This document shows positions 1,858-57,332 of a DNA stretch of 64,000 nt, one piece after another; the stretch's first letter is position 1, and each line of letters starts with the position of its first letter. Origin of the DNA: Cohnella sp. AR92 (GTDB taxonomy: Bacteria > Bacillota > Bacilli > Paenibacillales > Paenibacillaceae); assembly GCF_003990975.1 (NCBI RefSeq), contig NZ_RZJR01000014.1, forward strand, positions 62,001-126,000, read 5' to 3'. The notes beneath the pieces were generated by a model that was not told the origin of the DNA, made no database searches, and worked only from the letters and a program-made list of their open reading frames with translations. The translations under genes and the position numbers were made by a program.

Positions 1858-1886
1858 ACTATAATCAAATCCCGTTCAACTGACAA
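1858..1886 (-). promoter_or_regulatory. Sigma-A-type promoter for the S1 gene
   Basis: On the minus strand TTGTCA and TATAGT are separated by exactly 17 bases. Transcription would begin about 28 bases before the conserved GAGCG of leader hairpin E1. The promoter lies between the coupling-protein stop and that hairpin. Confidence 0.6.
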
Positions 1887-1907: not shown

Positions 1908-4853
1908 TTACTTATCCTTCGTCACTTCGAATATCTTCTTCAAGAATGGATTGCTGTTCACATCGATCCCTGAATCCTGCAGATGATCCAGCCGCCGTTT
2001 CTTCTCCGGCTTCTTATCGGCAATCGGCTCAGTTTCAGGTGCTTCCTCTGCCTTCGGCGCTGGAGCGGGTTCTTTGGTATCCTCCACTTCAGTAGGAACC
2101 AATCCCGCTTCCACGGCTGTTGAAGCCTTCGGTTCAATGGCTGGAGCTTCTGCAGCTGCTGGAGTAGCCGGCTTTGGTTTGTTCCCGAACATGCTTGAGA
2201 AGCTCACCACTTCCGATTCCTTCTTCTCCGGCTTCTCCGTCTTAGGGTTAGGCTCAGATGCACGCGGAAGCGGGATCTCCTGCTTCGTCTCCGCCTTAGA
2301 TGTCTCCCGTTCCTGCGGACCAGTTGATTTCACGGCAGCCGGCTTAGAGCTATTCTTTCCGTATACGAATTGGGACGCTCGCGGAACAGGAGTATTCTCC
2401 GCAGGTGCTTCCTCCGGTCCCGTCTCCTCATTTCCGCCCGCTTCCGTATCTTCATTCCTTGGGGAAAGGGCTTGGAAGCGGCGAACGCTGCTGTCCGTTT
2501 TGGCAATCTCCTCGAAGACAGGAGCTGTTTGCTTGATTTGGATTTGTTGTTCGAGATCGGCCGTATCGTCGTTTTGATCCGATCCAACCGCTTCTCCCCA
2601 TGTATCAATCCAATTCATATCAAACGCGTCTTCCTTCTCCGAATCGTTCTGCCAATACTGCATGAACGCCTTAACCGCGTCCTCATTGAGCGCCTTTTTC
2701 CACTTGTTTGCATCACCCATGTCCACGAAGTCGCCTTCAGCCTTAATGGCTTTTGTCGTGCTGCCTTCTACCACAAGCCGTATATAGCTGAATTTGAACT
2801 TATTGAACATGATCTCGTCTTCGCTGACCAGTTCCTTTTCCTCTCGCGTAACGGTCTGGGCATAACTGACATTCGGGCTTTTGGTATTCTCTGGCGACAC
2901 CGATTCTCTCGTCGAAACGACCTCTTCGACCTGGGTACCGAAGATCGGCATTAGCTTCTTGGCGTCATATTGGCCGACACCTCCATAGACGATAAAGTTC
3001 CGGATCGTGCCAACCATCGCATCGACAAACGACTCATCGAACTTGAACTTGAATTGGGAAAGAGACTGGCAGGCGACCAAGAAGGCAACCTTATATTTCC
3101 GTCCCTGTCCGGCCAGCTTCAGGAATGGGCTATTCATGTAGTCATAGAACTCATCGACATAGACGGATACGAGCGGCCGGGTGTCCTCGTCTCCCTTACG
3201 TCTGAATACGGCATTCTGGGTACTCATGAGGACGAGCTTACCAAAGGCGTCGGAGACATTTCCGAGGAGACCATTATCCGTATTACAGAGCAAGATGCCT
3301 CCTTTCCCCATCAGCTTGTCCAAGTCTACTGCGTTGCTGCCGACAAGAATGCGCGCCAGATAAGGGTTTTGAATCAAGTCGGCAAGTAGGTTACGGGTTT
3401 GCCGCGTGAATTCAGTCTGCTTGTCCTTGATTTTAACTTGTCCTCTATACGGACCAGACTCATATCGGAGCACCATACCTGTCTGGCGGTCCCGCTCCTC
3501 CTCGAGTCCATCGTTATCGAACCAGCGTAGCGTCCGAGTGACGAGCATCCAGTAGATCTGCATATCGTTCGGCATGCGGTTGATATCTGTCTGACTAGGT
3601 AGCTTCTTGCGAACCTCTTCCACCATGTCTTTTGTGAACCTCGGATCCTGATACATCTGATCCAAGTCCAAAAGTGAACAGGTGTTCTTCATGTGGAATT
3701 TGAGCAAGTAGATATACTGCTTAAGTACGGTCCGGCATGCCTGGCGGAAGAATTCATTGCTTACTTCGCTCATACCGTCCAATACCGCTGTTATTGTTTC
3801 GGCTACTTGCTCGATCGGTCCGATCATGCAGTTAAAGCCGGGCGTCCGCGGATTCGATGGATCCAGATAAACGATGAGACGATCCGGAATCCCATGCTCT
3901 TTTGCAAGGTGAAAACTTTTATCGCATAAATCTTTAGCCGGCTCAATGACCACGGTACCGATCAGATGCTTACCCATCTTCTTCTTGAACTCCGGGCTGT
4001 CGGTCCCATACTTTTGTGCCAATACAGGAAACGCATTGATCATCTTCTGCATGTGCGCAAGGTCCTGGCGAACACCTTTAATGATCTTAAGTGATGTCTT
4101 ACCGCTACCGGGGGGACCGATAAGCAAGGTTCCAAGCTGCCGAGATGCCCCCATTAAGACAACCGGAACCCGCAGGACAGCATCTATCGCCAGTGTGATA
4201 TCCGGGAAGACGTTAGCCATTTCATCACCGAAGCGGGATAAGTACTTCCACTGGAACTTGTAATCCGCAAACCAGTCCTGAACGACTTTATCCTCGCGGT
4301 AGACGCCTATCAGCCAGCTGAGGAAGAAGAACGAGACGATCTCAGGGATCATCATTACCGCAATGCCAAGAAACCGGAGAGCGCCAGGATTTACATACTG
4401 ACGATCCTCGCCCTTCACAAACGTATCGATCGTCATGATCTTGTCATAGGTGATCGGTCTCAGATAGTTTGAAGCAAATACGTTAAAGACTACGGTAAAT
4501 GTGATCACCACAAAGGCAAAGAAGAACATTCTTCGTCTTACGCTGGCGGTGCTTACTTTTACCCTGGTGCTGAATAGCCAACCGCATACGGCTAATACGG
4601 CCGTAATGAGCAGCAAGGAAAAATGAGAGGAAGCGGGAGGCGAATAGAAGACTAATAATCGTCCCAGTTCTGGAATTGCCTTGGTAAGCTGATCCTTGCC
4701 CATTTCAAAGTTCCCTGTGACGGTCGCCAAGAACATTCCTATGCTCGACAGCAGAATCAAAAATAAGGTGCCGTATATGAGCCATAAGACAATGAGCGGG
4801 GACGTTTTGCGCCAGTTGATGCTTCCGACCCGCTTCAGCAGGAAGCGTTTCAT
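1908..4853 (-). CDS. VirD4/TraG-type conjugation coupling ATPase
   Basis: A 981-residue coupling protein that would bring the DNA-relaxase complex to the secretion channel at the inner face of the membrane. Four hydrophobic segments lie in residues 18-180. A Walker A motif, GPPGSGKT, is at about 246-253. A Walker B motif, VYVDEFYDY, is at about 564-572, followed by the conserved glutamine-serine of the TraM-recognition region. Residues after about 750 form a Pro/Glu/Ala/Lys-rich, probably disordered tail, which is longer than usual for the family. The start at 4853 has GGGAGGAGG at good spacing, and its ATGA overlaps the upstream gene's stop by four bases. The rest of the secretion machinery is 35 kb away on the same strand. 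Confidence 0.9.
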   Translation of the reverse strand: MKRFLLKRVGSINWRKTSPLIVLWLIYGTLFLILLSSIGMFLATVTGNFEMGKDQLTKAIPELGRLLVFYSPPASSHFSLLLITAVLAVCGWLFSTRVKVSTASVRRRMFFFAFVVITFTVVFNVFASNYLRPITYDKIMTIDTFVKGEDRQYVNPGALRFLGIAVMMIPEIVSFFFLSWLIGVYREDKVVQDWFADYKFQWKYLSRFGDEMANVFPDITLAIDAVLRVPVVLMGASRQLGTLLIGPPGSGKTSLKIIKGVRQDLAHMQKMINAFPVLAQKYGTDSPEFKKKMGKHLIGTVVIEPAKDLCDKSFHLAKEHGIPDRLIVYLDPSNPRTPGFNCMIGPIEQVAETITAVLDGMSEVSNEFFRQACRTVLKQYIYLLKFHMKNTCSLLDLDQMYQDPRFTKDMVEEVRKKLPSQTDINRMPNDMQIYWMLVTRTLRWFDNDGLEEERDRQTGMVLRYESGPYRGQVKIKDKQTEFTRQTRNLLADLIQNPYLARILVGSNAVDLDKLMGKGGILLCNTDNGLLGNVSDAFGKLVLMSTQNAVFRRKGDEDTRPLVSVYVDEFYDYMNSPFLKLAGQGRKYKVAFLVACQSLSQFKFKFDESFVDAMVGTIRNFIVYGGVGQYDAKKLMPIFGTQVEEVVSTRESVSPENTKSPNVSYAQTVTREEKELVSEDEIMFNKFKFSYIRLVVEGSTTKAIKAEGDFVDMGDANKWKKALNEDAVKAFMQYWQNDSEKEDAFDMNWIDTWGEAVGSDQNDDTADLEQQIQIKQTAPVFEEIAKTDSSVRRFQALSPRNEDTEAGGNEETGPEEAPAENTPVPRASQFVYGKNSSKPAAVKSTGPQERETSKAETKQEIPLPRASEPNPKTEKPEKKESEVVSFSSMFGNKPKPATPAAAEAPAIEPKASTAVEAGLVPTEVEDTKEPAPAPKAEEAPETEPIADKKPEKKRRLDHLQDSGIDVNSNPFLKKIFEVTKDK

Positions 4854-6529
4854 CGATCGGCCTCCTCCCATACCAACGTCAGTTGGCCACGGACTTTACG
4901 ATAAGTTGGTTTTTTGTAATGCCCCCACGCACCTGTCCGCAGAACATCTTGCCAGTTCATGTAATGAAGCTGCGCCTGGGTTTCCAGCAGATGAACGTCA
5001 TTGCTCATTTCCTCATCGTTCGGATAGACGATGACAACCTTTGCCTTCTGATTGCCCTCATCGATCCATCTCTGCATGGCAAGCGCTTTGGCGACTTGGT
5101 TTACCCAACCGATTCGAGCAAAAAAGATCATGTGTGTCTCAGCCTCACCGAATCGCCTTACACGTACAACCTCATCGGGGAATACAGGCATAGGCGGGGT
5201 GACGGACACGTTCTTTAATTCTTCGGTGAAGGGAATGAGCTCGTAATCCAGAACACTTGGGGCAGCATTCACATAAGCGGCGAAGGCCTCCCCTCTCGTA
5301 AAGCCGGCAAGCATATTCCCTTCCTGCTCGATAAAAATCTCACAAGATTGCCGGCACGTTAATTCGTCGCCATGGAGAACGTTCGTCCTGTCATGGATAA
5401 GAGCATCCTCCAGCTGCCGAATGATTACCTTCTTCGTGTTGCGGCCCCGCTTCTGATTGTGAATCTTGGAGGACGGAAGCAAGGTGTCGTTCTCATACCA
5501 TTCGTTAATGCTAAAAAACGCCATGCTGTTACTCGGGTAGTAGTCGAGTGAGTATAAGAACTTCTTGCACTTGTCTTCAATCTCTTTCAAGTCTTCTGTC
5601 TTCAGGTCGCATTCCACAGAGAGCAGTCCCTTGAAGTGCTGCTTCAGTAGATCGAGCTCTTTCGATGACCTCGATTCAACCGGAGTATGGAGCGGGCATT
5701 CCGAGGTTCGTTTCTCTTCTACGAGAGAAGTGTAGTACGCATTCGGTTTAAAGATGAACCAGTCCGGACGGTAATAAGCACTCTTCCCCGCAACGCTCGG
5801 ATCCTCAATCGGATATCGCCGCCACTCAGTGCTCGGCGGGTGGATGCCCCGATCCGCCAAATTACGAAGAAGACGACTTACAAAGTCCTGTGTTTCAAAG
5901 TGGTGGCGTTCTTGGCTTCCGATCGCCAGGTTCTTCAGCATGTAGTGCTGCTTCGGTTCATTCAGATGGTCATAAACCCAAAGCGCCTGCATATCGAAGA
6001 CCGCGATGATGTAAAGGCCAAGGCGAGCCAGCCGATAATGGTATTTCTTTTCATCCCCCTTCGTCCTCCACGTCTTAAACGAAAGGTCCCGGCTGAGCAG
6101 GTTCTGCCCATACATCTCGGCAAGCAGATTGCCGACGGACTTTTTGTGCATATGCGGCACAGCTAACCGGGAGATCTGAAACATGTCGAGTTGACGGTGG
6201 ACATATAAGCAGCGAAGGATAGACATTTTATTCTCGTTCTTCAAACAGAGCTTAATGACCTTATCTTCGTCGTGCCCCGATTTTAACCGGCTACTCTTCC
6301 CGCTTACCCATCGCTTTCGTCGGCCGCTCTTTTCACGGAGCTCCGGAGTAGAAACCGAGGCATTCTCGTCCTCAAGTTCCTCATCTAGCAAATCGTCATC
6401 GGATTCCTCGTCTTCTAGGATGTCAGTAACGCCATTCACTCGCATACCATCAGTCGGAGAAAACGACTCGGTCGGATCATAATCCCCCAGGTCAAATTCG
6501 TCGCCGACGAAGTGCCTTACTTCCGTCAT
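4850..6529 (-). CDS. Replication-relaxation family protein, first gene of the coupling-protein operon
   Basis: A 559-residue protein. Residues 1-90 are acidic and low in complexity (runs of D, E and S), then basic. Residues about 100-170 form a winged helix (SILRCLYVHRQLDMFQISRL...NLLAEMYGQNLLSRDL), followed by a domain containing YYRPDWFIF, which is reminiscent of nuclease-like folds in replication-relaxation proteins. Such proteins commonly accompany conjugation modules and may help process or recognise the origin. No relaxase tyrosine/HUH motif could be picked out. AGGAGG lies 12 bases before the ATG at 6529, and the leader contains conserved hairpin E2. The gene is translationally coupled to the coupling protein. 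Confidence 0.65.
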   Translation of the reverse strand: MTEVRHFVGDEFDLGDYDPTESFSPTDGMRVNGVTDILEDEESDDDLLDEELEDENASVSTPELREKSGRRKRWVSGKSSRLKSGHDEDKVIKLCLKNENKMSILRCLYVHRQLDMFQISRLAVPHMHKKSVGNLLAEMYGQNLLSRDLSFKTWRTKGDEKKYHYRLARLGLYIIAVFDMQALWVYDHLNEPKQHYMLKNLAIGSQERHHFETQDFVSRLLRNLADRGIHPPSTEWRRYPIEDPSVAGKSAYYRPDWFIFKPNAYYTSLVEEKRTSECPLHTPVESRSSKELDLLKQHFKGLLSVECDLKTEDLKEIEDKCKKFLYSLDYYPSNSMAFFSINEWYENDTLLPSSKIHNQKRGRNTKKVIIRQLEDALIHDRTNVLHGDELTCRQSCEIFIEQEGNMLAGFTRGEAFAAYVNAAPSVLDYELIPFTEELKNVSVTPPMPVFPDEVVRVRRFGEAETHMIFFARIGWVNQVAKALAMQRWIDEGNQKAKVVIVYPNDEEMSNDVHLLETQAQLHYMNWQDVLRTGAWGHYKKPTYRKVRGQLTLVWEEADR

Positions 6530-6550: not shown

Positions 6551-6600
6551 ACGCAAAAAGACGCGACGTAGCCATAAGGCATACATCGCGTCTTCCGCTC
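6551..6600 (-). promoter_or_regulatory. Leader terminator, copy E2 of the conserved hairpin family
   Basis: On the minus strand GAGCGGAAGACGCGA leads into a stem whose other arm is TCGCGTCTTTTT, with an inner TGTA/TACG and GCC/GGC continuation and a TTAT loop. AGGAGG of the next gene begins about 12 bases after the T-run. No confident minus-strand gene lies upstream, so this is a terminator inside a leader rather than the end of another operon. A TATAAT-type -10 (6619-6624) sits upstream with a poor -35. Confidence 0.7.
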
Positions 6601-7440
6601 ACAGTATGATTATCACGAATTATACATCACGGACACGGAGAATTGGAACGGATTGTGGCAAGAAATATATGGAAGATGTTCCAAGGGTGGAATTGATGGT
6701 ACAGCCCTCGTTTTGGGGGAATGGGATAGGGGATGGTAATCGGGTCAGTCGATATACTTACTCTCGGTTCCGGAACACGCCCCTAAGCGAAAAATCTTAG
6801 CCCCGGGAAATCGAGAATGTAAAGAACGGAATAATCACTTGGAGTCCCTTGTTTGATCACGATTCACTGTCGTCCAAATTTATGCCTATAAACAACGGAT
6901 TCAAACGGTAAATGGCAACGGGTTCTAATGGTGCATATAGACCGTTGCCATAAGTAACCTCGCTCGATATTGATACCCACTTCCCTCTTGAGGGTGAATA
7001 ATTGGCAATAATCTGGCTATATTTGAGAGCCTTTTGGTCCCTTTTAAGAACCTCACTCAACAGGAATACCATGATTTGATGTGATAGGTTATCGCATATC
7101 ATAAGGTCAATGCCGGCGATTCAGCTCCTTCCAAACATGCATTACAAGCTAGGAGCAGCTGCTGCTTCTGATAAGTGGAATACCCCTCCCACCTCCTCCT
7201 ACTCGTTTATCATCATTCGGCCTACATTATCCTCTAGGGTCATTCTTCCACGTTTCCATGATTCCACTTGAAGGAATCCCATGCTCGAGTGCTTCAGCAG
7301 CTTGGTGCCAGACCTTAAAACTCTGTATCGACTTAAGTTTGAGTTCTATGCCTTCGATTCAACTAGAATGGGCATTGAATGAACGAACGTGATGATCCAA
7401 TTAACGTCATGATGGCCACCAACCAGAGTTCTTCTTACAC
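6601..7440. other. Gene-poor spacer
   Basis: About 840 bases without a convincing gene. The longest frame (minus strand, 6857-7102, 81 codons) has no recognisable ribosome site and no known domain. The only structure noticed is a 33-base motif around 7233-7268 that recurs near 58405-58450. Confidence 0.5.
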
Positions 7441-34972: not shown

Positions 34973-34984
34973 ATTCATAATTCA

Positions 34985-35036
34985 TGAGCGAAAGACACGA
35001 AATCACCCGGAAGGGTTGGTTTCGCGTCATTTTTTT
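34985..35036 (+). terminator. Hairpin E3, variant copy of the leader element, ending the ger operon
   Basis: GACACGAAA (34994-35002) and TTTCGCGTC (35020-35028) flank an inner part TCACCCGGAAGGGTTGG identical to that of leader copy E5 at 57141-57194. T7 follows. Outside the core, three substitutions separate it from E5. A short AGGACTTAATG with a nine-codon frame follows, as if this were once a leader too. Here it probably serves as the ger terminator. Confidence 0.75.
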
Positions 35037-39345: not shown

Positions 39346-41274
39346 TCACTCCCTGCTTACATACAATAGTGGATTTACAGGTTCGCCTTTCACATGGACT
39401 TCGAAGTGTAGATGGCGACCGTCAACATTCCCGGTTTCCCCCATTGTGCCTAATACCGTGCCGGCAGTCACTTCCTGGCCAACTGTCACTTTCAAACTAT
39501 TCGCCTTCATATGGGCATAAAGCGTCTCTATGCCACCACCATGATCAATAACCACTTTATATCCGTATCCATCCTCGCTATAGCCAGCCACGGTCACAAT
39601 GCCATCCATTGCTGCAATATTGGGATAATCCCGCTTGTCTGAATTTGCAGGGGCAATGTCGACTCCTTTGTGTAGTTTATAAACTCCACTTACCGGGTTA
39701 GTTCGCATTCCAAAATTTGATGTCACATAGGTCGCCGTTGTTGGCCAGACCATCTGTCCTGCTATTGCTTGAACTGGCACACTGGTTCCATCTTCAGATC
39801 CAACAAGTGTGGTATCGCTTAAACCGATACCAAATATACCGTTATACCCAAGCATCAGAGTCTTTGTCTCATCATTTTCATTAATGCCTTCTGCAATCAA
39901 CTCGACGTCTTCTTGAGTAAAGTCATACTTCTGCATTAGTTTGTCGAACTTGGTGAAATTCGGAGTCGAGCATCCATCAAAGATATTGCCGACGTATGTA
40001 ACGTCCTCCCAGTGCTCGCCTGTGTCCGGATTTATTCCACTGTTAGCGTCATACTGAAATAAGTTATAGGAATTCATGATGTTTTTTAATTTTGTTGCAT
40101 AGTTCGGATCCGTAGCATAGCCTGCCCTGGCTATTTCATTGACGAACTCATACGGATTTGATTTCGTCAATGCAACTTGATACCGCGGATTCTCTAGGAA
40201 AAATGAAGTGTGATCATGGAACCCCTCAACAGCATTTTGATATGCACGAAATGCTGCTTTCTCTTTATATACAACTCCTTCATCACTCACTTCAGTTGTC
40301 CACATTAATACTTTGGATCCTGTCCAACTCTCATCGGCTTTTATACCAAAGAAATTGTAATACTTAGAAGCGAGCTCGCTGGTTCCCCATCCTCCTTCTA
40401 ATACCGCTTGGGCAAGAGTAACACTAGCTGGTACTCCACTTTCCAAGCTTTCTTTTTGAGCTAAAGGCCCCCATGTATCAAAGAAGGAATTCGTTTTGCT
40501 CCCGATCGTCGTTATGGTTGAACCCGATGCGGAATTTGACACTAAGCAAGCCGACACATCCTTAACCCACCTGGTTGAGGTTGTTGTAACTGTGGCGCTC
40601 TCCTGTCCATCGCCTGAGGAATAATGGGTTGTCGCGGTGCTTGATTCTTGTTTATACGGGATCATGATATCCCGATTCCAAGTGTGTGCCTCCGTAAGCA
40701 ATTTGAGAGTAGTATTGCTCTCATTAGTCTTGGTTGTGATGCTACCGTCTGCAATTGCCGTAGTCGTTGTCGTTGTCGTAGTTGTATTGGTGAAGTTTTT
40801 ATATACGAGGTCAGGCTTTAACGCGTTCGCGATTGTTTCGGGATCGATATCATCTATATCAAGTTCTGCTTTCGTAATTCGCATGCTATCTATGACTTGC
40901 ACAACAAAAATTGGAGGCCGGTACTCTTCGATTTCTGAGGTTTTAACGATCGCGGCTGTATAGGCATCTGTCACATTTTGAGAAACATCGCCGTCATCGC
41001 CCCCAAGCCACATCAAAAAGATAATTGCGCCTCCGACAAGAATTACAACGGCGGCTAATATCAGTGCTGGTATGCCTATCAATGCGGCCAGGTAGCCCAA
41101 TAATTGCATAATCGCTCTCATGAGCATGCTTGCTAACTTCTTAACGAGCTTTTTGATGAGCTTTTTAACAGCATGCTTAATTACTTTTTTTATCTTATCT
41201 TTTACTTTGTCCTTTGCCTTGTTTCCTATTGATCTCGCGACTTCCAACATATTGCCATCGGTAAATCCACTCAT
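39346..41274 (-). CDS. VirB1-like wall hydrolase: glucosaminidase plus M23 endopeptidase
   Basis: A 642-residue protein that opens a hole in peptidoglycan for the conjugation channel. A very basic N-terminus (repeats of KKLIKKLVKK) leads into a membrane helix (residues about 60-90). A Thr-rich linker follows, then a glucosaminidase domain at about 255-390 (VTLAQAVLEGGWGTSELASK, NFFGIKADE). At the C-terminus is an M23/LytM peptidase with HKGVDIAP, HGGGIETLYAHM and GRHLHFEVHV zinc ligands. The start is unusual. GGGAGGTGA lies 27 bases upstream, but a perfect 8-bp hairpin between it and the ATG would bring them to normal distance. Confidence 0.88.
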   Translation of the reverse strand: MSGFTDGNMLEVARSIGNKAKDKVKDKIKKVIKHAVKKLIKKLVKKLASMLMRAIMQLLGYLAALIGIPALILAAVVILVGGAIIFLMWLGGDDGDVSQNVTDAYTAAIVKTSEIEEYRPPIFVVQVIDSMRITKAELDIDDIDPETIANALKPDLVYKNFTNTTTTTTTTTAIADGSITTKTNESNTTLKLLTEAHTWNRDIMIPYKQESSTATTHYSSGDGQESATVTTTSTRWVKDVSACLVSNSASGSTITTIGSKTNSFFDTWGPLAQKESLESGVPASVTLAQAVLEGGWGTSELASKYYNFFGIKADESWTGSKVLMWTTEVSDEGVVYKEKAAFRAYQNAVEGFHDHTSFFLENPRYQVALTKSNPYEFVNEIARAGYATDPNYATKLKNIMNSYNLFQYDANSGINPDTGEHWEDVTYVGNIFDGCSTPNFTKFDKLMQKYDFTQEDVELIAEGINENDETKTLMLGYNGIFGIGLSDTTLVGSEDGTSVPVQAIAGQMVWPTTATYVTSNFGMRTNPVSGVYKLHKGVDIAPANSDKRDYPNIAAMDGIVTVAGYSEDGYGYKVVIDHGGGIETLYAHMKANSLKVTVGQEVTAGTVLGTMGETGNVDGRHLHFEVHVKGEPVNPLLYVSRE

Positions 41275-41326: not shown

Positions 41327-43501
41327 TTAAATTTTTGCACGCTGCAGCGCGGAAGGAGCCGACTGCAAAGAAGGAACACTCATGTTCTTTCTTCTTAGAT
41401 CAACATGGTTTGCAGGACGACCTTTCTCAAGGAATTCTGCAGGATTAACCGTCCTTCCCTGGTAGACCATTTGAACCCCCTCGGAATCATAAGTGACTGG
41501 AGGCACTTCTTCCATTGAGCCTGGTCTGATCTCGGAAGGTTGCATCATTGGTTTAATAGCAAAAGGCTGCCCGTTCACTTTACTTGCGGTATAGGTTCTT
41601 GCAACAACTTGTCCTTTTCCAAGAGAGGCATTTCCACGTCCGATATTGGAAATACGAGTGAATTGTCCATTTTCTTGGGTAGCTAGGAAGCTGCCATCGC
41701 GGGTTTCGACCGTATACACCTGCTGATCTGGCGTAAAGCTTCCGGAAGATAGCGGTTTACCTGTATGGCGCCATTGTGCAAACTTCTCGCCAAGTTGGTA
41801 GCCACCTTTACCACCGATAACCTCACTAATTGCGCCGTATACTTTTTCAGCGCTGGCACGCTTGATAGCTGGATCATTCCTTTCTTCTACCCCTCCGGCT
41901 ACTCCCTTAAAGGCAGAAGTAACGGCTGATCCGACCATTGGAGCCGATCTTACAACCGCTTTAGTAAGTGGATCCGCGTTTTGATAGCGTGGTTCATCCA
42001 GAGGATTGCCCTTCTTTTGTTGTGCATCGTTAAAATGCTCTTTCGTGTTTCTCACCCAGGAGTGAGCACCTTTACCGGCAGCAACTGACAATGCCCCTGC
42101 ACGATAGCCTGCTGCCTCGCCAACTGCTGCTCCAGCCTCGCTGAAGGCAAACTGACCCACTGGTCCAAGACCAACGCCCATCGAGGCACCAGCAAAGCGT
42201 CCAGCCCCTTTGCTAAAGCCTCCGGTCAATGCACCCGCTAAACGCATACGAGAAGCAAAGGAGTTTGAAGGAGCTCCATCAGCAGAACCATTAGCAGCAG
42301 CACCAGAACCACCCATCATTCCACCAACATGCGCCATGACGCTTGCACCAGCCTTAGAGCCGCCTCGCGCACCGCCTTGCTCAGCAGATCCGCTTTTGCC
42401 AGATGCCTGTTTATCGCGAACGGTAGAGATGCCGTTCTTCACATCACCGATGGCGCGGCCCATGTGCATAAACGCGCCTACGCCTGCAACCGTGCCCGCC
42501 ATAGCGAGCTTGGACCCGGTTTGACTCGTGGAACCGAATATAAATCGAACAGACTCAGATATTGGTATAAATAGAGCCATCGCAACTGTTACATGGAACC
42601 ATCCGATATTTTCACCGAACAAGTTAAAGAACAGCCAGAATAAGGCAGCATGTATGCCTTGTGCAATGATTTGCGACCATAGCTCCTTAAAGGCGGCTAT
42701 CGTTATCCCCTGCAACATGGGATAGAACATCATCGATATCCATAAAGGAGCCAGAACAAGCAGAAGGGAAATGAACATGTACCTTTGCAGATAGAAGACT
42801 TCCCACCAAATTGATAGCCCTCGAGTAGCGAAAGAAACAATAAGTCTTCCAAAACTGCTTTGTTCAGATGAGAAATCTCGTAACTTGATACGATCTCCCT
42901 CAGCCACACTCGACTGTAAATCACCGTTTAGGTTTTCACCGTAATAGGAAAGGTCTACTGGTTGCTTGATATCCTGGTAGAACATGCTCACGACCATGTC
43001 ATTTGCCTTAAACAGGGTACCTGATACGGTGAAGAAGTTTGTGATTAGCACAATGCCTATCATGCATTTGATAAGAGTTTCAGTTGTCTCGATCTTCATG
43101 GTCGACGAAAGTGGAGTCACCGAATATAGGGTACCGGCTTTCACTACGGCTGCCGTAATAATGAATCCCATTGCAATTGAAAGAAGCGCATAACCGCGGC
43201 GGATGACGTGGTTAAAATTGTCCTCCGAGTAAAGACCAAAAACTTTATCGTCGCAGCCCGTTTCATTTTCAAAACAAGAATGATAGAAGACGTGGTCGGC
43301 TGGATCGTGTATTCCACCAAAGACAGATAAAATCTGATCAAGAATCCATAGGAACGGTTTTGCATACCAGGGATCGGACCCCAGCTCGATTGTAGACCCA
43401 AGTTCAACTGGAGAAGCGAGTGCCGACGACAAAGGTAGGAATATGCTGGTCATTACAAACAAAAGCAAAAATACAACGGCTACTCTTTGCTTTGATTTCA
43501 T
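41327..43501 (-). CDS. VirB6/TrbL-like polytopic membrane protein
   Basis: A 724-residue protein with a signal-like N-terminus (VVFLLLFVMTSIFLPLSS). A soluble loop with two cysteines (CFENETGC) comes next, then about five to six membrane segments between residues 100 and 330. From about 335 a Gly/Ala/Ser-rich tail contains possible phase-variable low-complexity sequence and a final soluble part. This is the layout of the channel-forming VirB6/ConG proteins of Gram-positive conjugation systems. Its ATG overlaps the VirB4 stop by four bases. Confidence 0.75.
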   Translation of the reverse strand: MKSKQRVAVVFLLLFVMTSIFLPLSSALASPVELGSTIELGSDPWYAKPFLWILDQILSVFGGIHDPADHVFYHSCFENETGCDDKVFGLYSEDNFNHVIRRGYALLSIAMGFIITAAVVKAGTLYSVTPLSSTMKIETTETLIKCMIGIVLITNFFTVSGTLFKANDMVVSMFYQDIKQPVDLSYYGENLNGDLQSSVAEGDRIKLRDFSSEQSSFGRLIVSFATRGLSIWWEVFYLQRYMFISLLLVLAPLWISMMFYPMLQGITIAAFKELWSQIIAQGIHAALFWLFFNLFGENIGWFHVTVAMALFIPISESVRFIFGSTSQTGSKLAMAGTVAGVGAFMHMGRAIGDVKNGISTVRDKQASGKSGSAEQGGARGGSKAGASVMAHVGGMMGGSGAAANGSADGAPSNSFASRMRLAGALTGGFSKGAGRFAGASMGVGLGPVGQFAFSEAGAAVGEAAGYRAGALSVAAGKGAHSWVRNTKEHFNDAQQKKGNPLDEPRYQNADPLTKAVVRSAPMVGSAVTSAFKGVAGGVEERNDPAIKRASAEKVYGAISEVIGGKGGYQLGEKFAQWRHTGKPLSSGSFTPDQQVYTVETRDGSFLATQENGQFTRISNIGRGNASLGKGQVVARTYTASKVNGQPFAIKPMMQPSEIRPGSMEEVPPVTYDSEGVQMVYQGRTVNPAEFLEKGRPANHVDLRRKNMSVPSLQSAPSALQRAKI

Positions 43502-45609
43502 TCATTCCCCACCCCAACCAGTTCAGTAGTTTCCTCTCCATCCTCGATCTCCGGAAGTAATCCTTGTGTTTGAAGGTAATCTGGATCGGTATCGATAAAC
43601 TTGCGCATCTCACCAGAAACCGTCACCTTTATGTAGGCTGAGCTACCGCCTACTCGAAGCACACCTTCACCTTTACTATCATCCTTGGAGGACTCCGGAG
43701 GCCGCCGGCAAATAATGTCCATCTCGCCCTCTGAGAAGTTAAAGATCGATTTTAGTTTGTTCTTCTCATCGAATGAGATTTGACCTAAGCGGAGAAACAG
43801 CGCTGTCGTCGCATTTTTAACTACAGCAATCCCGTTCGGGTCATCAAGGAATGGCATTAAGTCCTGAGTAATGATATCGATGCCCCCGTTATATTTGCGG
43901 CTGCGTCGGCCCATATCCTCGACGAATTCCATCCCGCCCGGAATACGTTTTTGTCTCCATGCTTCCTCGAGCTTTACGCGCTTGCGGAATTTACGCAAGG
44001 AAGGTCGCTTTACGAAATATTCCCAAGCCAGAGTTGTAACGATGTGATTCATCAAATCATAGATATCGCTTCCCTCAATCGGTTTAAGATTGAAGTTGAT
44101 CCAACAAACCTCATCTAACATGTTGTCGACTGGCTTACCATCATCAAAATTGGTTTGGCCATCAAGTAGCTTGCCGTCCGGGTAGTCTCTCAAGTAGCCT
44201 CGAAGGACCTTAATCAAGCGGGCAGCGAATTCATCCTTTAGCCCGTCAAATGTTAGCGTCTCTAAATTAGGATTAGTCGTGCAGTTCAACAGGATACGAT
44301 GGTAAATATCCGTCAAAGTCATTTCCCTTTTACGCTTTTTGCGATAATCAATCCCACCGGATTCTGTTCGGTAGGCGATCTTCTCTGCTTCGTAGAGAGA
44401 CTCCGGATCCTCATTGATGCCAAAGTCATTGAATACGTCCATGATGGCTGATTTGACGATCGCTTTTTCTTCAGAGGATAGTCCACCTGCCAACTTGTCA
44501 TAAAACTTCAGTAGTTGGCCGGTCTTGGAGCCGATTGGAACAGTGACCTTATTGACTCGCCGCCCGTTTGCTAGCGTCACTTCTACTTCTTCTTCTGTAA
44601 TCGCGCAAACATTTATGCAAACATTACTGCCTTCGCGGATCTCTACTTCTCTACCGCCCATAAGCCGGCAGATAGGTCCGTTCTCTCCGTCCGGATCAAT
44701 GGAGAAGATACGGTAGCCGAGAAGTACCTGTGTAGCCGTAATATGCTTATTGCTAAAGCTCTTGCCAGAACCGGACGCTCCGACAATGAGAGAAGTATAG
44801 GAGTCGAGGTACGGAGCGAACACATTTAGAAATTCCATGGTGTAGGTGTGCTTGTTTACGCCTATCGGTACGCCGCCGGTGAATGGAATCTTCGATGAAT
44901 AGAACGGTGATGCAGCGACAAGTGATGTCCTGTCAAAAAACCGACGATCGCCGCGCTCTTTCAAGCGGTTATTTCCGGTAGGTAACGTTGACAACCAGCC
45001 ATCTCTTTGCCGATCATAAAGGACTCTTAGGTTATGGTCATTCCCGATAAGATCGTCCTGGATGATCATTCCAATGTTATCGAGCGTTCTCTCATCGGGT
45101 GCATAGACGGTTGCAACACAGGTTGCTAAAAAACCATCGTTATAGCCATCCGATATTTCATCCAGCAACCTTCTGGCTTGATTCATTGACTTTTCGGCAT
45201 CCGCTGCCTCCAGATCGTTCCCACTCTTAAGCATGCTGACTAATCGAGCGCCTTCATCTGTTGCAGCTGACTTATAGGTTCGGACCGCCTGGCTCTTAGT
45301 CAACTTTGTCATGTAGAATGTCACATTGACGGCGCCTGCGCGGTATAAGGTATCCAAGGCACCAGTGGTGAGGGTGGTTGTTCCAAATTCCAAGATGAAG
45401 GAACGGAACGGGTAGTCGCTGACAGCCCCCTCACTTTGATAGCCAATGTCTCGAATATTCGTCGGAATTTCATGGCCATTTAAACGTATAAGGTCAAAGA
45501 GGTTTTTTTTGTTTCCAGCGTATTGGTCTTCCGTCGTATCCGCTTCGTGAAGTTGAGGTTGAGGCTTTTGAGCTTTCTTGGATTTACTAAATGGCAACTT
45601 TATCTTCAT
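43498..45609 (-). CDS. VirB4/TraE-family conjugation ATPase
   Basis: A 703-residue cytoplasmic ATPase that powers assembly and DNA transfer through the secretion channel. The first 250 residues are the CagE/TrbE-type N-domain. A Walker A, GASGSGKS, lies at about 277-284. The later IFSIDPDGENGP, VCWINFNL and IDIITQDLMPFL segments fit the arginine-finger, Walker B and motif regions. I chose the ATG at 45609, with GAGGAG upstream. The longer frame would overlap the preceding gene by 77 bases. It overlaps the VirB6-like gene by four bases. Confidence 0.9.
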   Translation of the reverse strand: MKIKLPFSKSKKAQKPQPQLHEADTTEDQYAGNKKNLFDLIRLNGHEIPTNIRDIGYQSEGAVSDYPFRSFILEFGTTTLTTGALDTLYRAGAVNVTFYMTKLTKSQAVRTYKSAATDEGARLVSMLKSGNDLEAADAEKSMNQARRLLDEISDGYNDGFLATCVATVYAPDERTLDNIGMIIQDDLIGNDHNLRVLYDRQRDGWLSTLPTGNNRLKERGDRRFFDRTSLVAASPFYSSKIPFTGGVPIGVNKHTYTMEFLNVFAPYLDSYTSLIVGASGSGKSFSNKHITATQVLLGYRIFSIDPDGENGPICRLMGGREVEIREGSNVCINVCAITEEEVEVTLANGRRVNKVTVPIGSKTGQLLKFYDKLAGGLSSEEKAIVKSAIMDVFNDFGINEDPESLYEAEKIAYRTESGGIDYRKKRKREMTLTDIYHRILLNCTTNPNLETLTFDGLKDEFAARLIKVLRGYLRDYPDGKLLDGQTNFDDGKPVDNMLDEVCWINFNLKPIEGSDIYDLMNHIVTTLAWEYFVKRPSLRKFRKRVKLEEAWRQKRIPGGMEFVEDMGRRSRKYNGGIDIITQDLMPFLDDPNGIAVVKNATTALFLRLGQISFDEKNKLKSIFNFSEGEMDIICRRPPESSKDDSKGEGVLRVGGSSAYIKVTVSGEMRKFIDTDPDYLQTQGLLPEIEDGEETTELVGVGNE

Positions 45610-46459
45610 CCGATTCGTTCTCCTCTTCTTCAAGATAGCGGTAGCCCTTTCTGGAATAGTCACTCATTACAAATGGCGACAGAGGGTTTTCCCGGTCAAA
45701 TAAACTACGGAAATGCTCAATGCTTGCCGATTTCTTATGCGTTGCAAAATACAAAGCCTCGTATAGGTCTCTTTGCTGGCAGATTTCTGCTATTCCGCCC
45801 ATTCTTCCATAATTACTGATAATGTTGCTCGCAAGCCGGCCGAACTCGTTTCTAACCTTAACCAAAATTGAATCTTCATCCATGTCCCCGATCATTTTAT
45901 TGGAATAATCCAGAGTGACAAGGAAGTACCGCCCATAATCGAATTCTTCAACGCCCTTTTGCCAAGTTTCCATGAAAGGGAAAAACATCGTTTGTGCATA
46001 CCTTTGAGCGACCGGGTCAAGATTCTGAAAATTGTTATAGTAGACTTTCATTTGGTCTACCAGTTCGATCGGTCGCGAGTGAACATGAGTCGCGACATGA
46101 ACTTCTCTCCCGGGTCCAAGTGATAAGCTGGCGAACAAATGCTCATATGCATTATCTGTGTCCGCTTGCTCATCGTTGGAGCGCAATGCGTAATTAATGG
46201 GTTCACATTGAACTGCTCCAACAAATACTCGTACATCCTTCTGCTCTGTCTTCAGCTCAAACAAGTTGCCATGAACAGTCTTGATTCCAAGGAGTTCATT
46301 GAATGGCCCCTTGATTTCACGAGTATTTATTGCTAATTCTCGCTTGTTTTTTTGTTTTTTAGCTCTTTTCCGTAATGGAATAATGGGTTTATGGTTGAGG
46401 CCTCGGTAGAGGAGGTATCCGACAAGTCCAAGCGCTACGTACATAATCAAATCTGCCAC
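45587..46459 (-). CDS. T4SS accessory protein in the TrsD/ConD position
   Basis: A 290-residue protein with one N-terminal membrane helix (MYVALGLVGYLLY), then a basic stretch and a soluble domain. The soluble part (VHGNLFELKTEQKDVRVFVG; FFPFMETWQKGVEEFDYG; YFLVTLDYS) resembles the N-terminal domain of VirB4 proteins, so it may be a split-off or paralogous form. GGAGGGG lies seven bases before the GTG start, which shares one base with the upstream stop. A transfer role is inferred from operon position. Confidence 0.6.
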   Translation of the reverse strand: MADLIMYVALGLVGYLLYRGLNHKPIIPLRKRAKKQKNKRELAINTREIKGPFNELLGIKTVHGNLFELKTEQKDVRVFVGAVQCEPINYALRSNDEQADTDNAYEHLFASLSLGPGREVHVATHVHSRPIELVDQMKVYYNNFQNLDPVAQRYAQTMFFPFMETWQKGVEEFDYGRYFLVTLDYSNKMIGDMDEDSILVKVRNEFGRLASNIISNYGRMGGIAEICQQRDLYEALYFATHKKSASIEHFRSLFDRENPLSPFVMSDYSRKGYRYLEEEENESDEDKVAI

Positions 46460-46785
46460 TAGTTACCCCTCCATACTCCACTCTGTGTTTTTTTGTGTCT
46501 CAGATGATACCAAAGGTGACGGTCCAAAAAGTGGCCCGTTTGGGGATGCCTATAAAGGGCGAAAACGACGAAAGGAACGACAACGGGTATGCACAATACC
46601 CATATGATGAGGTTCACGATTATGCTTAGTGAACTGGTATAAACCCATTGACACAGTTGGAGAAGCAGCAGAACGGCCGCACCAAAATAGGCAGATTGTC
46701 TCCAGGAAAACGTCCAATCCCATATTTTCACGGGTCTTCGTTCTTTTTCTGTATCAAATGGTAGAAGAGCTCTCAAATAACTCAT
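46459..46785 (-). CDS. VirB3/PrgI-like small membrane protein
   Basis: A 108-residue protein with two hydrophobic helices (about 30-48 and 55-80) between basic ends, matching the size and topology of VirB3/PrgI components that partner VirB4. GGGGG touches the ATG at 46785 directly; a TTG three codons later has better spacing and may be the true start. Confidence 0.6.
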   Translation of the reverse strand: MSYLRALLPFDTEKERRPVKIWDWTFSWRQSAYFGAAVLLLLQLCQWVYTSSLSIIVNLIIWVLCIPVVVPFVVFALYRHPQTGHFLDRHLWYHLRHKKTQSGVWRGN

Positions 46786-46843: not shown

Positions 46844-47239
46844 TCAAGTTGCTGACTGATTGATGAAGTAATCGGCCAACGTCGGCGCTTTACCGATGAT
46901 AACGATCCCGATAGCAGCACCTATCAAACAAGCTATTGCTATTCCCCGTCTCTGTGCGTTACCTAATGAAATAGAGAATAGAATGCCGCCGATTACGATA
47001 CCAAAGACAGCTACCACAGCGCCAATAATCCGTAGCGTTAGGATCCAATCCTTCAAAGTGGTCGTAATGTCCGTTATGTTGCCTGTGCCGCCGCCAATCT
47101 GGCTCTTGTCAACATAATCATCTGCCGCAAATGCGTGACCGGATCCTAGCATTGCTCCGATGGAGAAGAACGAGAATAGTAGCGCAAAAACGACAAGATA
47201 CGGTACAGAGCCTCGGAAAATCTTCTTGGTCATAACCAT
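46844..47239 (-). CDS. VirB2/TrbC-like pilin subunit
   Basis: A 131-residue protein with a long signal peptide (residues about 8-38, cleavage near AFAA-DD). Two hydrophobic helices (IIGAVVAVFGIVIGGILF and GIAIACLIGAAIGIVIIG) are separated by a basic turn NAQRR. This is the classic VirB2 layout. It is the first gene of the type IV secretion operon. GGAGG precedes the ATG, and leader hairpin E4 lies upstream. Confidence 0.75.
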   Translation of the reverse strand: MVMTKKIFRGSVPYLVVFALLFSFFSIGAMLGSGHAFAADDYVDKSQIGGGTGNITDITTTLKDWILTLRIIGAVVAVFGIVIGGILFSISLGNAQRRGIAIACLIGAAIGIVIIGKAPTLADYFINQSAT

Positions 47240-47295
47240 TTTTCAACCCTCCATTTAATTTGAGTAATCCGAGCGGAACAAAACTGCACCTCCTA

Positions 47296-47353
47296 GCAAA
47301 AAAAGACGCAAAACCAATCCCCTCAAAGGGATTTGATTTTGCGTCTTCCGCTC
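47296..47353 (-). promoter_or_regulatory. Leader terminator, copy E4 of the conserved hairpin family
   Basis: On the minus strand GAGCGGAAGACGCAAAA pairs with TTTTGCGTCTTTTTTT around an inner AATCCC/GGGGATT hairpin. The nearest gene upstream is transcribed the other way, so this is a true leader terminator of the T4SS operon. Directly after it AGGAGG faces a possible leader-peptide frame (TTG at 47281, eight codons, stop at 47255), and only then comes the pilin ribosome site. Confidence 0.75.
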
Positions 47354-47558
47354 TTATCGATATGAATTGAACCCAAAGCTCTGTTCAATTTGTATATTAC
47401 TGAGTCTTATTTTAAAGAAATTTGGTATTTCTGGCAACATGAAATATCGAAAATAGATATTTATAAACGTTTTACGATATTGCACTATCCATTTCTTGGT
47501 TGTATAATTGGCGCACAAGGAATATTTTCCATGACCCTAGAAAGTGGGTGAGCGATAT

Positions 47559-56270: not shown

Positions 56271-56483
56271 CTATTGTATGTTTTGTTCGCCTGCTCGTCT
56301 AGTAAGAGAAGCTCGCAGATTGTAATAGCGAATGACCAACTGATCAAGCTCATCGGATTTGAGCTGCAGCTCATTTGATTGGAAGGCATACTCGGCATTC
56401 TGTCCGAGCACATGTAGCTCATGCCTGGCTTGTTCGATTTGATCTTCAAGCTCTCTCTTTTGGCAATTGGAAGAATGACTCAT
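56271..56483 (-). CDS. Spo0E-like aspartyl-phosphate phosphatase
   Basis: A 70-residue protein. Two helices joined by a short turn (ELEDQIEQARHELHVLGQNA and DELDQLVIRYYNLRASL) with the Spo0E signature S-x-E-L-D-x-L-I-x-x-Y, here SDELDQLVIRYY. Such proteins dephosphorylate Spo0A~P and delay sporulation. The ATG shares one base with the HD-GYP stop (TGATG), and AAGGTG precedes it. Its presence in a replication operon is unusual. Confidence 0.78.
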   Translation of the reverse strand: MSHSSNCQKRELEDQIEQARHELHVLGQNAEYAFQSNELQLKSDELDQLVIRYYNLRASLTRRAGEQNIQ

Positions 56484-57127
56484 CACACCGGCACCTTCTT
56501 GGGTAATGAAGAATATGCGTTCCATTCCGCGAGGAACGATCGCAGTTGCTGCAGGAAGTCATTATCAAACTGCTGAGGGTTGTCCGACAGGTAATTCAGA
56601 ATGCCTTCATCGTCAATCGTATTTAGCCGATAGAGCCGCGGCATCTTCATAGCCGAATACACATCAGAAATAGCCGCAATCCTTCCGATGAAGCTCTCTT
56701 CCGGGATACCCTGCGGATAGCCGCTTCCATCGAGGCGCTCATGATGCGATTGGCAGAAGTGTATGATGTCATCGCCAAAATGGAGTTCCGTTAGTGCGTC
56801 CACGCCTTTTTGAACATGTTCAATCAGGCCGAGCCGCTCCTCCTCCGATAATTTGCGGGATGATTTTAAGATGTCATCGGGCATCGTGAGCTTGCCAATG
56901 TCGTGGAGTAAGCCGGCTAAAAACATTCGTTCTGCCAATTGAGGGCGATCCATCCGCAAACAGAGATGATAGGCTGCGAAAGCAACGACAAGCGAATGAT
57001 CCGCTGTTGCTTGGCACCTGTATTGAAGGGCAAGAAATAGCGTTTTGCCTTTCTCCCACTCCATGTCCTTGTGTTGGGAACTCAGCTGCATAAACAAATG
57101 CTTAGAATCGTCCAGAATAGCCACCAT
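56483..57127 (-). CDS. HD-GYP domain protein, probable c-di-GMP phosphodiesterase
   Basis: A 214-residue protein consisting almost only of the HD-GYP domain. The metal-binding HD is in GLLHDIGKLTMPDDIL (about 71-86). The GYP motif is HHERLDGSGYPQGI (about 125-138), and ISDVYSAM follows. No sensory domain or membrane segment is present. The family cleaves cyclic di-GMP, and some members cleave cGAMP. GGAGGTAA immediately precedes the ATG; an in-frame GTG is the next codon. Leader hairpin E5 lies 14 bases further up. It heads the operon containing the Spo0E-like and initiator genes. Confidence 0.85.
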   Translation of the reverse strand: MVAILDDSKHLFMQLSSQHKDMEWEKGKTLFLALQYRCQATADHSLVVAFAAYHLCLRMDRPQLAERMFLAGLLHDIGKLTMPDDILKSSRKLSEEERLGLIEHVQKGVDALTELHFGDDIIHFCQSHHERLDGSGYPQGIPEESFIGRIAAISDVYSAMKMPRLYRLNTIDDEGILNYLSDNPQQFDNDFLQQLRSFLAEWNAYSSLPKKVPV

Positions 57128-57140
57128 TTACCTCCTTGGA

Positions 57141-57194
57141 TGAAAAAAAAGACGCGAAACCAACCCTTCCGGGTGATTTCGCGTCTTCCGCTCA
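57141..57194 (-). promoter_or_regulatory. Leader terminator, copy E5 of the conserved hairpin family
   Basis: GAGCGGAAGACGCGAAA pairs with TTTCGCGTCTT around an inner CCC-GGAA-GGG hairpin and is followed by T8 and then AAGGAGG of the HD-GYP gene. A TATAAT-type -10 (57214-57219) with a weak -35 lies upstream. The core is nearly identical to hairpin E3 at 34985-35036. Confidence 0.75.
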
Positions 57195-57332
57195 TGTATT
57201 GTGAATTTATCTCATTATAATACAGCAAGAAAATAAAAGGAACGTTTTTATCCCTTCGAATTTCCATATTTCCGGGCGCCGACGCTTGCGGGGCCCCATG
57301 CCGATCTCAAGAGCGAGCTGCCAGCTATTCGG

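Follow-up and report, generated by a model that had tools for sequence, protein, structure and literature searches.

The DNA analysed here (the window, 64,000 nucleotides) comprises positions 62001-126000 of contig C25 (127,176 bp) in the 6.02-Mb genome of Cohnella sp. AR92. Among the genes of this contig are those for a tubulin/FtsZ-like protein, a coupling protein, a replication-relaxation protein and a T4SS; the nearest named relatives of its examined loci are Paenibacillus, and the contig is very probably a conjugative plasmid. Four operons of the window, all on the minus strand, are each preceded by a hairpin of the same kind. One lies at 57143-57199 in front of a gene for an HD-domain protein (56483-57127, minus; 214 aa; Pfam HD_5 E 2e-21), which is followed by a Spo0E-like gene (56271-56525, minus; Pfam SpoOE-like E 2.5e-6). 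The second, at 47297-47359 (minus) with a divergent gene upstream, precedes the T4SS operon, which opens with a pilin gene (46844-47239, minus; Pfam T4SS_pilin E 1.8e-10) and includes a PrgI-like gene (46459-46785; Pfam PrgI E 8.5e-9), an ATPase gene (43498-45663; Pfam P-loop_TraG E 1.3e-11) and a glucosaminidase/M23 gene (39346-41274; Pfam Glucosaminidase E 1.6e-38). The third (6552-6606, minus) stands before a gene of the Replication-relaxation family (4850-6529, minus; Pfam Replic_Relax E 3.5e-7) and the coupling-protein gene behind it (1908-4871, minus; Pfam TraG-D_C E 1.4e-8), and the fourth (1780-1831, minus) before the gene of a bS1-like S1-domain protein of 311 aa (806-1741, minus; Pfam S1 E 7e-6, model and fold search). 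The earlier note had placed these copies at 1771-1832, 6551-6600, 47296-47353 and 57141-57194, where we find all four. It named the S1, coupling-protein and T4SS operons correctly, but what it took for a replication operon behind the copy at 57141 is the HD-domain gene followed by the Spo0E-like gene; its proposal of copy-number control is not supported by our analysis. The HD-domain and Spo0E-like genes, together with a GGDEF gene on the same plasmid (62261-63406, minus), may connect it with signalling and sporulation of the host.

Each copy follows the same order: a predicted promoter, a short 5′ leader, the motif GCGGAAGACGC, a variable upper stem and loop, the 3′ arm GCGTCTT, a U-tract, a Shine-Dalgarno (SD) site and the start codon. 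The 5′ side reads GAGCGGAAGACGC, with the variant GAGCGAAAAGCGGAAGACGC in the copy at 1771-1832. In the HD leader, the motif occupies 57191-57181 and the 3′ arm 57155-57149 (minus), the U-tract following. All four hairpins are strong, at about -22 to -27 kcal/mol (-26.2 kcal/mol in the HD leader). A consensus scan predicts -10 boxes TATAAT at 57214-57219 (minus), 22 nt upstream of GCGG in the HD leader, and at 6619-6624 (minus), 20 nt upstream of it in the replication-relaxation/coupling leader, as well as a promoter TTGTCA-N17-TATAGT at 1858-1886 (minus) for the S1 leader. Including three minus-strand copies outside the window (C25:55087, 53890 and 44715), the contig holds seven copies and one decayed copy. 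The latter, GCGAAAGACAC at 34980-35036 (plus; E 1.1e-4 with the second covariance model, R2), is of the HD type: it duplicates the HD leader element plus about 20 nt of its upstream sequence, GACGC has become GACAC in it, and no SD site or start was found behind it. Two of the outer copies (C25 53851-53898 and 55048-55095, minus) share a further 80-90 nt of conserved upstream sequence, GGGTGGCATGC...GAGAACAGAATAGG, in front of genes with signal-peptide-like starts; this sequence found no match in Rfam and is possibly another leader RNA or a duplication.

The hairpin bears the marks of a selected RNA structure. In an alignment of 29 loop-trimmed copies, 97.8% of stem cells are paired, and both sides have changed in 42 cells, compared with 13.1 in shuffles, affecting 6 of 11 pairs; shared descent of the 29 copies means that shuffle and Fisher significance are overstated. 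Sliding the register abolishes the pairing signal. The upper-stem pairs listed in the earlier note (CACG/CGTG, CGA/TCG, CAAAA/TTTTG and CGAAA/TTTCG) are correct, and its reading of them as compensatory change in a selected RNA structure is borne out by these counts. Compensated changes occur in the lower stem as well, in plasmids of Cytobacillus oceanisediminis (NZ_CP062791, hereafter W01; W01:104572, AGCACGC/GCGTGCT) and Metabacillus (pB218, NZ_CP088246, hereafter W02; W02:323317, AACACGC/GCGTGTT). These features bear on whether the inverted repeat, lying as it does downstream of predicted promoters on a plasmid with HTH/MerR-type regulator genes, is instead a DNA operator bound by a plasmid repressor. 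An operator calls for fixed helical spacing, whereas the arm-to-arm distance ranges from 20 to 38 nt; the maintenance of upper-stem pairing through compensatory change and a U-tract kept in all copies on one side only also argue for RNA, which makes an operator very improbable.

The position of the copies speaks for leaders. No same-strand ORF of at least 100 aa ends less than 78 nt upstream of any copy, and on five replicons the gene upstream of the T4SS copy is divergent and lies 172-207 nt away. In most copies, predicted -10 boxes lie about 20-41 nt upstream of GCGG, or about 51-61 nt in several T4SS leaders, and their distances match between orthologs in the consensus scan; S1-leader promoters of the form TTGTCA/T-N17-TATAGT are likewise predicted in P. 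periandrae, P. agricola and G250. The stem is followed after 17-66 nt, in most copies, by the start codon, and a transcript start 3′ of the hairpin is unlikely on this geometry because that interval also has to hold the SD site. A GC-containing hairpin with a U-tract thus lies between predicted promoter and first gene, the arrangement by which attenuators are recognised. Of the terminator-like sites, 9 of 12 with the GCG[GA] flank are leader-type, compared with 21 of 188 other terminators (p 2e-6). The placement of the 6551 and 47296 copies inside leaders, as the earlier note had it, agrees with a predicted promoter upstream and no nearby same-strand gene end. Same-strand genes do end upstream of the other two after all (84 nt from 1832 and 141 nt from 57194), but with a predicted promoter in between, so that these copies also look leader-type. 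That the hairpins end upstream genes as ordinary terminators, or insulate against read-through, and owe their likeness to chance or recent duplication, is therefore hard to credit and the least probable of the readings we weighed. Some chromosomal pattern matches do sit 12 nt behind a gene; the spacing, the divergent genes and the predicted promoters tell against this origin for the plasmid copies, and since the upper stems of orthologous copies have diverged between the two families, recent duplication is excluded as the sole cause.

In our searches, the element turned up on a small set of related replicons. The exact pattern GCGGAAGACGC-N8-38-GCGTCTTTT matches three times in its own genome, always on C25 (the fourth window copy, with GCGTCTTCTTT, escapes it), while the reversed pattern gave 0 matches there and the exact pattern 0 in 36 congeners. 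In a scan of 84,980 species, each represented by one genome, it occurs only in P. periandrae (two contigs), in P. agricola and in one Spirochaetaceae match, which was rejected as a family member because its context is unrelated. A covariance model built from eight copies (R1) found copies in both Paenibacillus genomes, in the two Bacillaceae plasmids and on a contig from another genus of the same family as our strain (G250:C13), and R2 found all of these again. In its own genome, R2 gives nine matches at E<=0.05, all on C25, and strong matches are absent from the chromosome; the four window copies, all part of the model seed, score between 2e-7 and 4e-10 (HD 3.7e-10, T4SS 9.9e-9, S1 1.3e-8, replication-relaxation/coupling 2.3e-7). 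Weak covariance matches in 396 family and 399 class genomes are mostly ordinary terminators without the GCG flank. The earlier note would have been refuted by a covariance search finding only terminators behind genes. This did not happen: the strong members of the family are leader elements on related plasmids.

What unites these replicons is the company the element keeps. It precedes the same four operons (S1, replication-relaxation/coupling, T4SS pilin and HD) at 24 of 24 positions on six replicons from two bacterial families, a count in which the G250 pilin was assigned by eye from its first residues and the HD gene of W02 looks truncated. The idea of one common element for several operons, put forward from the window alone, thus extends to six related replicons; for P. 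periandrae and P. agricola, whose genomes are drafts, the plasmid location of the copies is inferred. In Metabacillus pB218 (locus L082, 1602-2600), the HD frame retains only an N-terminal part (67 aa) before unrelated sequence, with the leader element kept. On the Bacillaceae plasmids, the element is also found ahead of XRE-type regulator genes and of two further genes related to each other (W02:307577 and W01:98496). Four type I pattern matches on chromosomes were set aside as ordinary terminators 12 nt behind one gene, and a phage origin was rejected after pattern scans of IMG/VR returned a single contig whose match looks like chance.

While the earlier note was right about the structure, it missed a competing hairpin within the conserved 5′ motif. 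GCGGAAGACGC can fold alone as a mini-hairpin, GCG-GAAGA-CGC, using the terminator's own 5′ arm, and the two folds are therefore mutually exclusive. When leaders are folded up to just before the 3′ arm, GCG pairs with the 5′-arm CGC in 23 of 23. The mini-hairpin stem contributes only -1.2 to -2.6 kcal/mol, against about -25 for the terminator; a hairpin this weak would have to be stabilised by a bound factor. Its GCG/CGC stem is invariant in all copies, so covariation neither proves nor disproves it. The invariant 5′ bases are exactly the mini-hairpin stem and loop positions 2 and 5, with positions 1, 3 and 4 varying. One-sided changes of the lower stem fall in the 3′ arm (5 of 58 opportunities) and never in the 5′ arm (0 of 145; p 0.0017, subject to the same shared descent), and the 5′ arm is therefore constrained by more than the terminator. 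Seven of the eight GCG-RARNA-CGC sites on C25 are leader terminators and all five in the W01 and W02 segments precede a U-tract, whereas GCG-N5-CGC with other loops coincides with a terminator at only 1 of 75 sites. The copy at C25:44715 even retains GCGGAGGACGC despite a differently pairing terminator. The first loop base is G in 26 of 29 aligned copies and A in the other three as well as in the outer C25 copies; the loop thus approaches a GNRNA-type pentaloop in part of the copies only, and in one relative, W01:98496, it ends in T (GAAAT) and so falls outside RARNA. Separately, the T4SS leader carries TTCCGCTC shortly after the SD site (window 47271-47278, minus), as do two further loci at the same place (three species in all); it is the exact complement of the conserved GAGCGGAA, and a second pairing of the two, enclosing terminator and SD site, is possible.

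We propose that these hairpins act as attenuators in the leaders of one regulon spanning the plasmid, relieved together by a plasmid RNA-binding factor, and give this reading a probability of about 0.5; its attenuation part, a prediction from sequence, is well supported by anatomy and conservation. RNA polymerase would start at the predicted sigma-A-type promoter, about 13-35 nt upstream of the motif in most copies, and an intrinsic terminator just before the SD site would keep the operon off by default. The invariant 11 nt of GCG-GAAGA-CGC would be transcribed first and form a mini-hairpin that sequesters part of the terminator 5′ arm. If a plasmid-encoded RNA-binding factor held this mini-hairpin, the terminator could not form, and read-through of all marked operons (S1, coupling protein, T4SS and HD) would become joint. 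The leaders measure about 13-54 nt before the motif, about 13-35 nt in most, and hence leave little space for a ligand-binding domain; none known to Rfam was found in them. One constant tag on the terminator that every operon transcript must pass points instead to one trans factor. The same anatomy would suit constitutive partial terminators acting as brakes, or 5′ stabilising hairpins, with low unregulated expression. We consider this unlikely, although the factor is a candidate only: without regulation, a hairpin would have no use for a single-stranded GCG that never varies or for a lower 5′ arm kept constant across two families while the rest drifts, and a stabilising hairpin would have no need of the U-tract that every copy keeps.

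But which protein could read the tag? The best candidate, albeit a weak one, is the plasmid's own S1-domain protein, which may thereby control its own gene. It is RNA-binding by family, its model (mean pLDDT 77.7) matches ribosomal protein bS1 in a fold search, and its gene is itself marked by the element on six of six replicons. Close S1 homologs (71-100% identity) and strong element sets occur in the same 2 of 396 family genomes; in about 20 of these 396 with distant S1 homologs only, strong type I copies are absent. Shared plasmid descent could explain this link equally well. LoaP, ANTAR and LicT were ruled out as plasmid factors by their absence from C25, W01 and W02: no NusG/LoaP paralog scores above cut-off on the three (the own genome has one match, on contig C9), no ANTAR domain (PF03861) was found on them (matches in G000 lie only on contigs C18 and C29), and no CAT_RBD protein was found in the own genome, W01 or W02. 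A riboswitch or T-box identity was likewise rejected, as no Rfam match was found. A trans-acting RNA complementary to the motif was considered too; beyond the antisense of the element itself, TCTTCCGC sites offered no conserved intergenic candidate.

A factor could also act more broadly. In processive antitermination, the motif would be a nut- or boxB-like loading site from which a factor rides RNA polymerase past the adjacent and further terminators, and the loop pattern indeed resembles phage boxB pentaloops (P22 GACAA, PMC12550061). On the minus strand of C25 between 8 and 63 kb, 22 of 78 terminator-like sites lie within 60 nt of an SD site or start, compared with 1 of 47 on the plus strand; perhaps a single operon here contains numerous terminators in its interior, in the manner of pLS20, whose conAn system provides an earlier example of a conjugation operon with multiple terminators (PMC8955417). 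Ordinary terminators may, however, account for many of these internal sites; every operon has a separate copy that overlaps the terminator of that same operon, which is what local control predicts, and the contig yielded no NusG/LoaP paralog; we therefore regard a processive mechanism as rather unlikely.

Related signals extend beyond the plasmids. A sister form, GCGAAGCACGC...GCGTGCTTTTT, occurs as a joint pattern in 72 of 392 family genomes, often behind a -10-like sequence and before XRE-type regulator, Rpn-like, surface-protein or topoisomerase-like genes (named by eye), and four copies lie on a 543,320-bp replicon that carries a distant S1 homolog; other matches to the sister pattern are ordinary terminators. 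At nine loci, long leader terminators beginning with GCGAAGCACGC precede Rpn-like genes (starting KKRLNPKNDYLFKRLFGE), and at seven loci from several genera, a TGTATAAATAAA-like promoter is followed by a GCGAAGCACGC leader terminator and then by a small XRE-type regulator gene. It is tempting to speculate that GCG-RARNA-CGC represents a new kind of antiterminator, a minimal hairpin bound by a bS1-like, self-regulating plasmid protein that activates transfer genes by overcoming the terminators in their leaders, with the sister form marking leaders on plasmids and chromosomes across Paenibacillaceae; we consider this extended version unlikely as it stands.

The common hairpin at each main transfer-related operon suggests that one plasmid factor may switch all of them on by overriding stops. 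Should this prove true, transfer-related operons in a class of large Bacillales plasmids would be controlled by termination through one short RNA tag, and multi-operon protein-dependent attenuation would join the known ways in which conjugative elements keep genes silent. It would also provide a testable regulon, a candidate antiterminator protein and a route to regulated operons from sequence only. Rfam gave no match at gathering score, only sub-threshold hairpin matches, and a literature search that reached few subscription journals returned no description; neither the element nor its deployment at the main plasmid operons nor the terminator-sharing mini-hairpin appears to be described in Rfam or in the papers that could be searched.

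Finally, we would like to compare the element with known leader systems, since protein-dependent attenuation as a kind is already known. The LoaP leaders of Bacillus velezensis combine leader RNA and antitermination in Bacilli (PMC12691694), but LoaP is a NusG paralog, of a kind that C25, W01 and W02 lack above cut-off. Lambdoid boxB/N shares the short stem and the purine-rich five-base loop near G-N-R-N-A (P22 boxB GACAA, PMC12550061); here, however, the hairpin overlaps a terminator, has a 3-bp stem and begins its loop with A in some copies, and no N-like peptide was identified. The conAn system of pLS20-type plasmids likewise controls conjugation operons of Gram-positive plasmids through termination, but there a single protein and a single RNA, placed where one long operon begins, allow many terminators to be bypassed (PMC8955417), while in our case each operon has its own tagged leader terminator, a distinction drawn from architecture. 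Two further systems work by excluding the terminator. ANTAR leaders stand before several genes belonging to one pathway, as in the EutV-controlled eut genes of Enterococcus faecalis, and there a small hairpin stabilised by the protein keeps the terminator from forming (PMC3369936), much as proposed here; EutV requires two hairpins, P1 and P2, whose loops carry the residues A1 and G4, whereas our element shows one 3-bp stem with a five-base loop, and its replicons C25, W01 and W02 lack an ANTAR protein. In the RAT/CAT systems of the BglG/SacY/LicT family, a protein-stabilised antiterminator and the leader terminator are mutually exclusive (PMC3369936), the same principle again, but the RAT stem is longer and contains two internal loops, and no CAT_RBD protein was found in the own genome or on W01 and W02. 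By analogy, the element would thus work like the ANTAR and RAT leaders without being a member of either.
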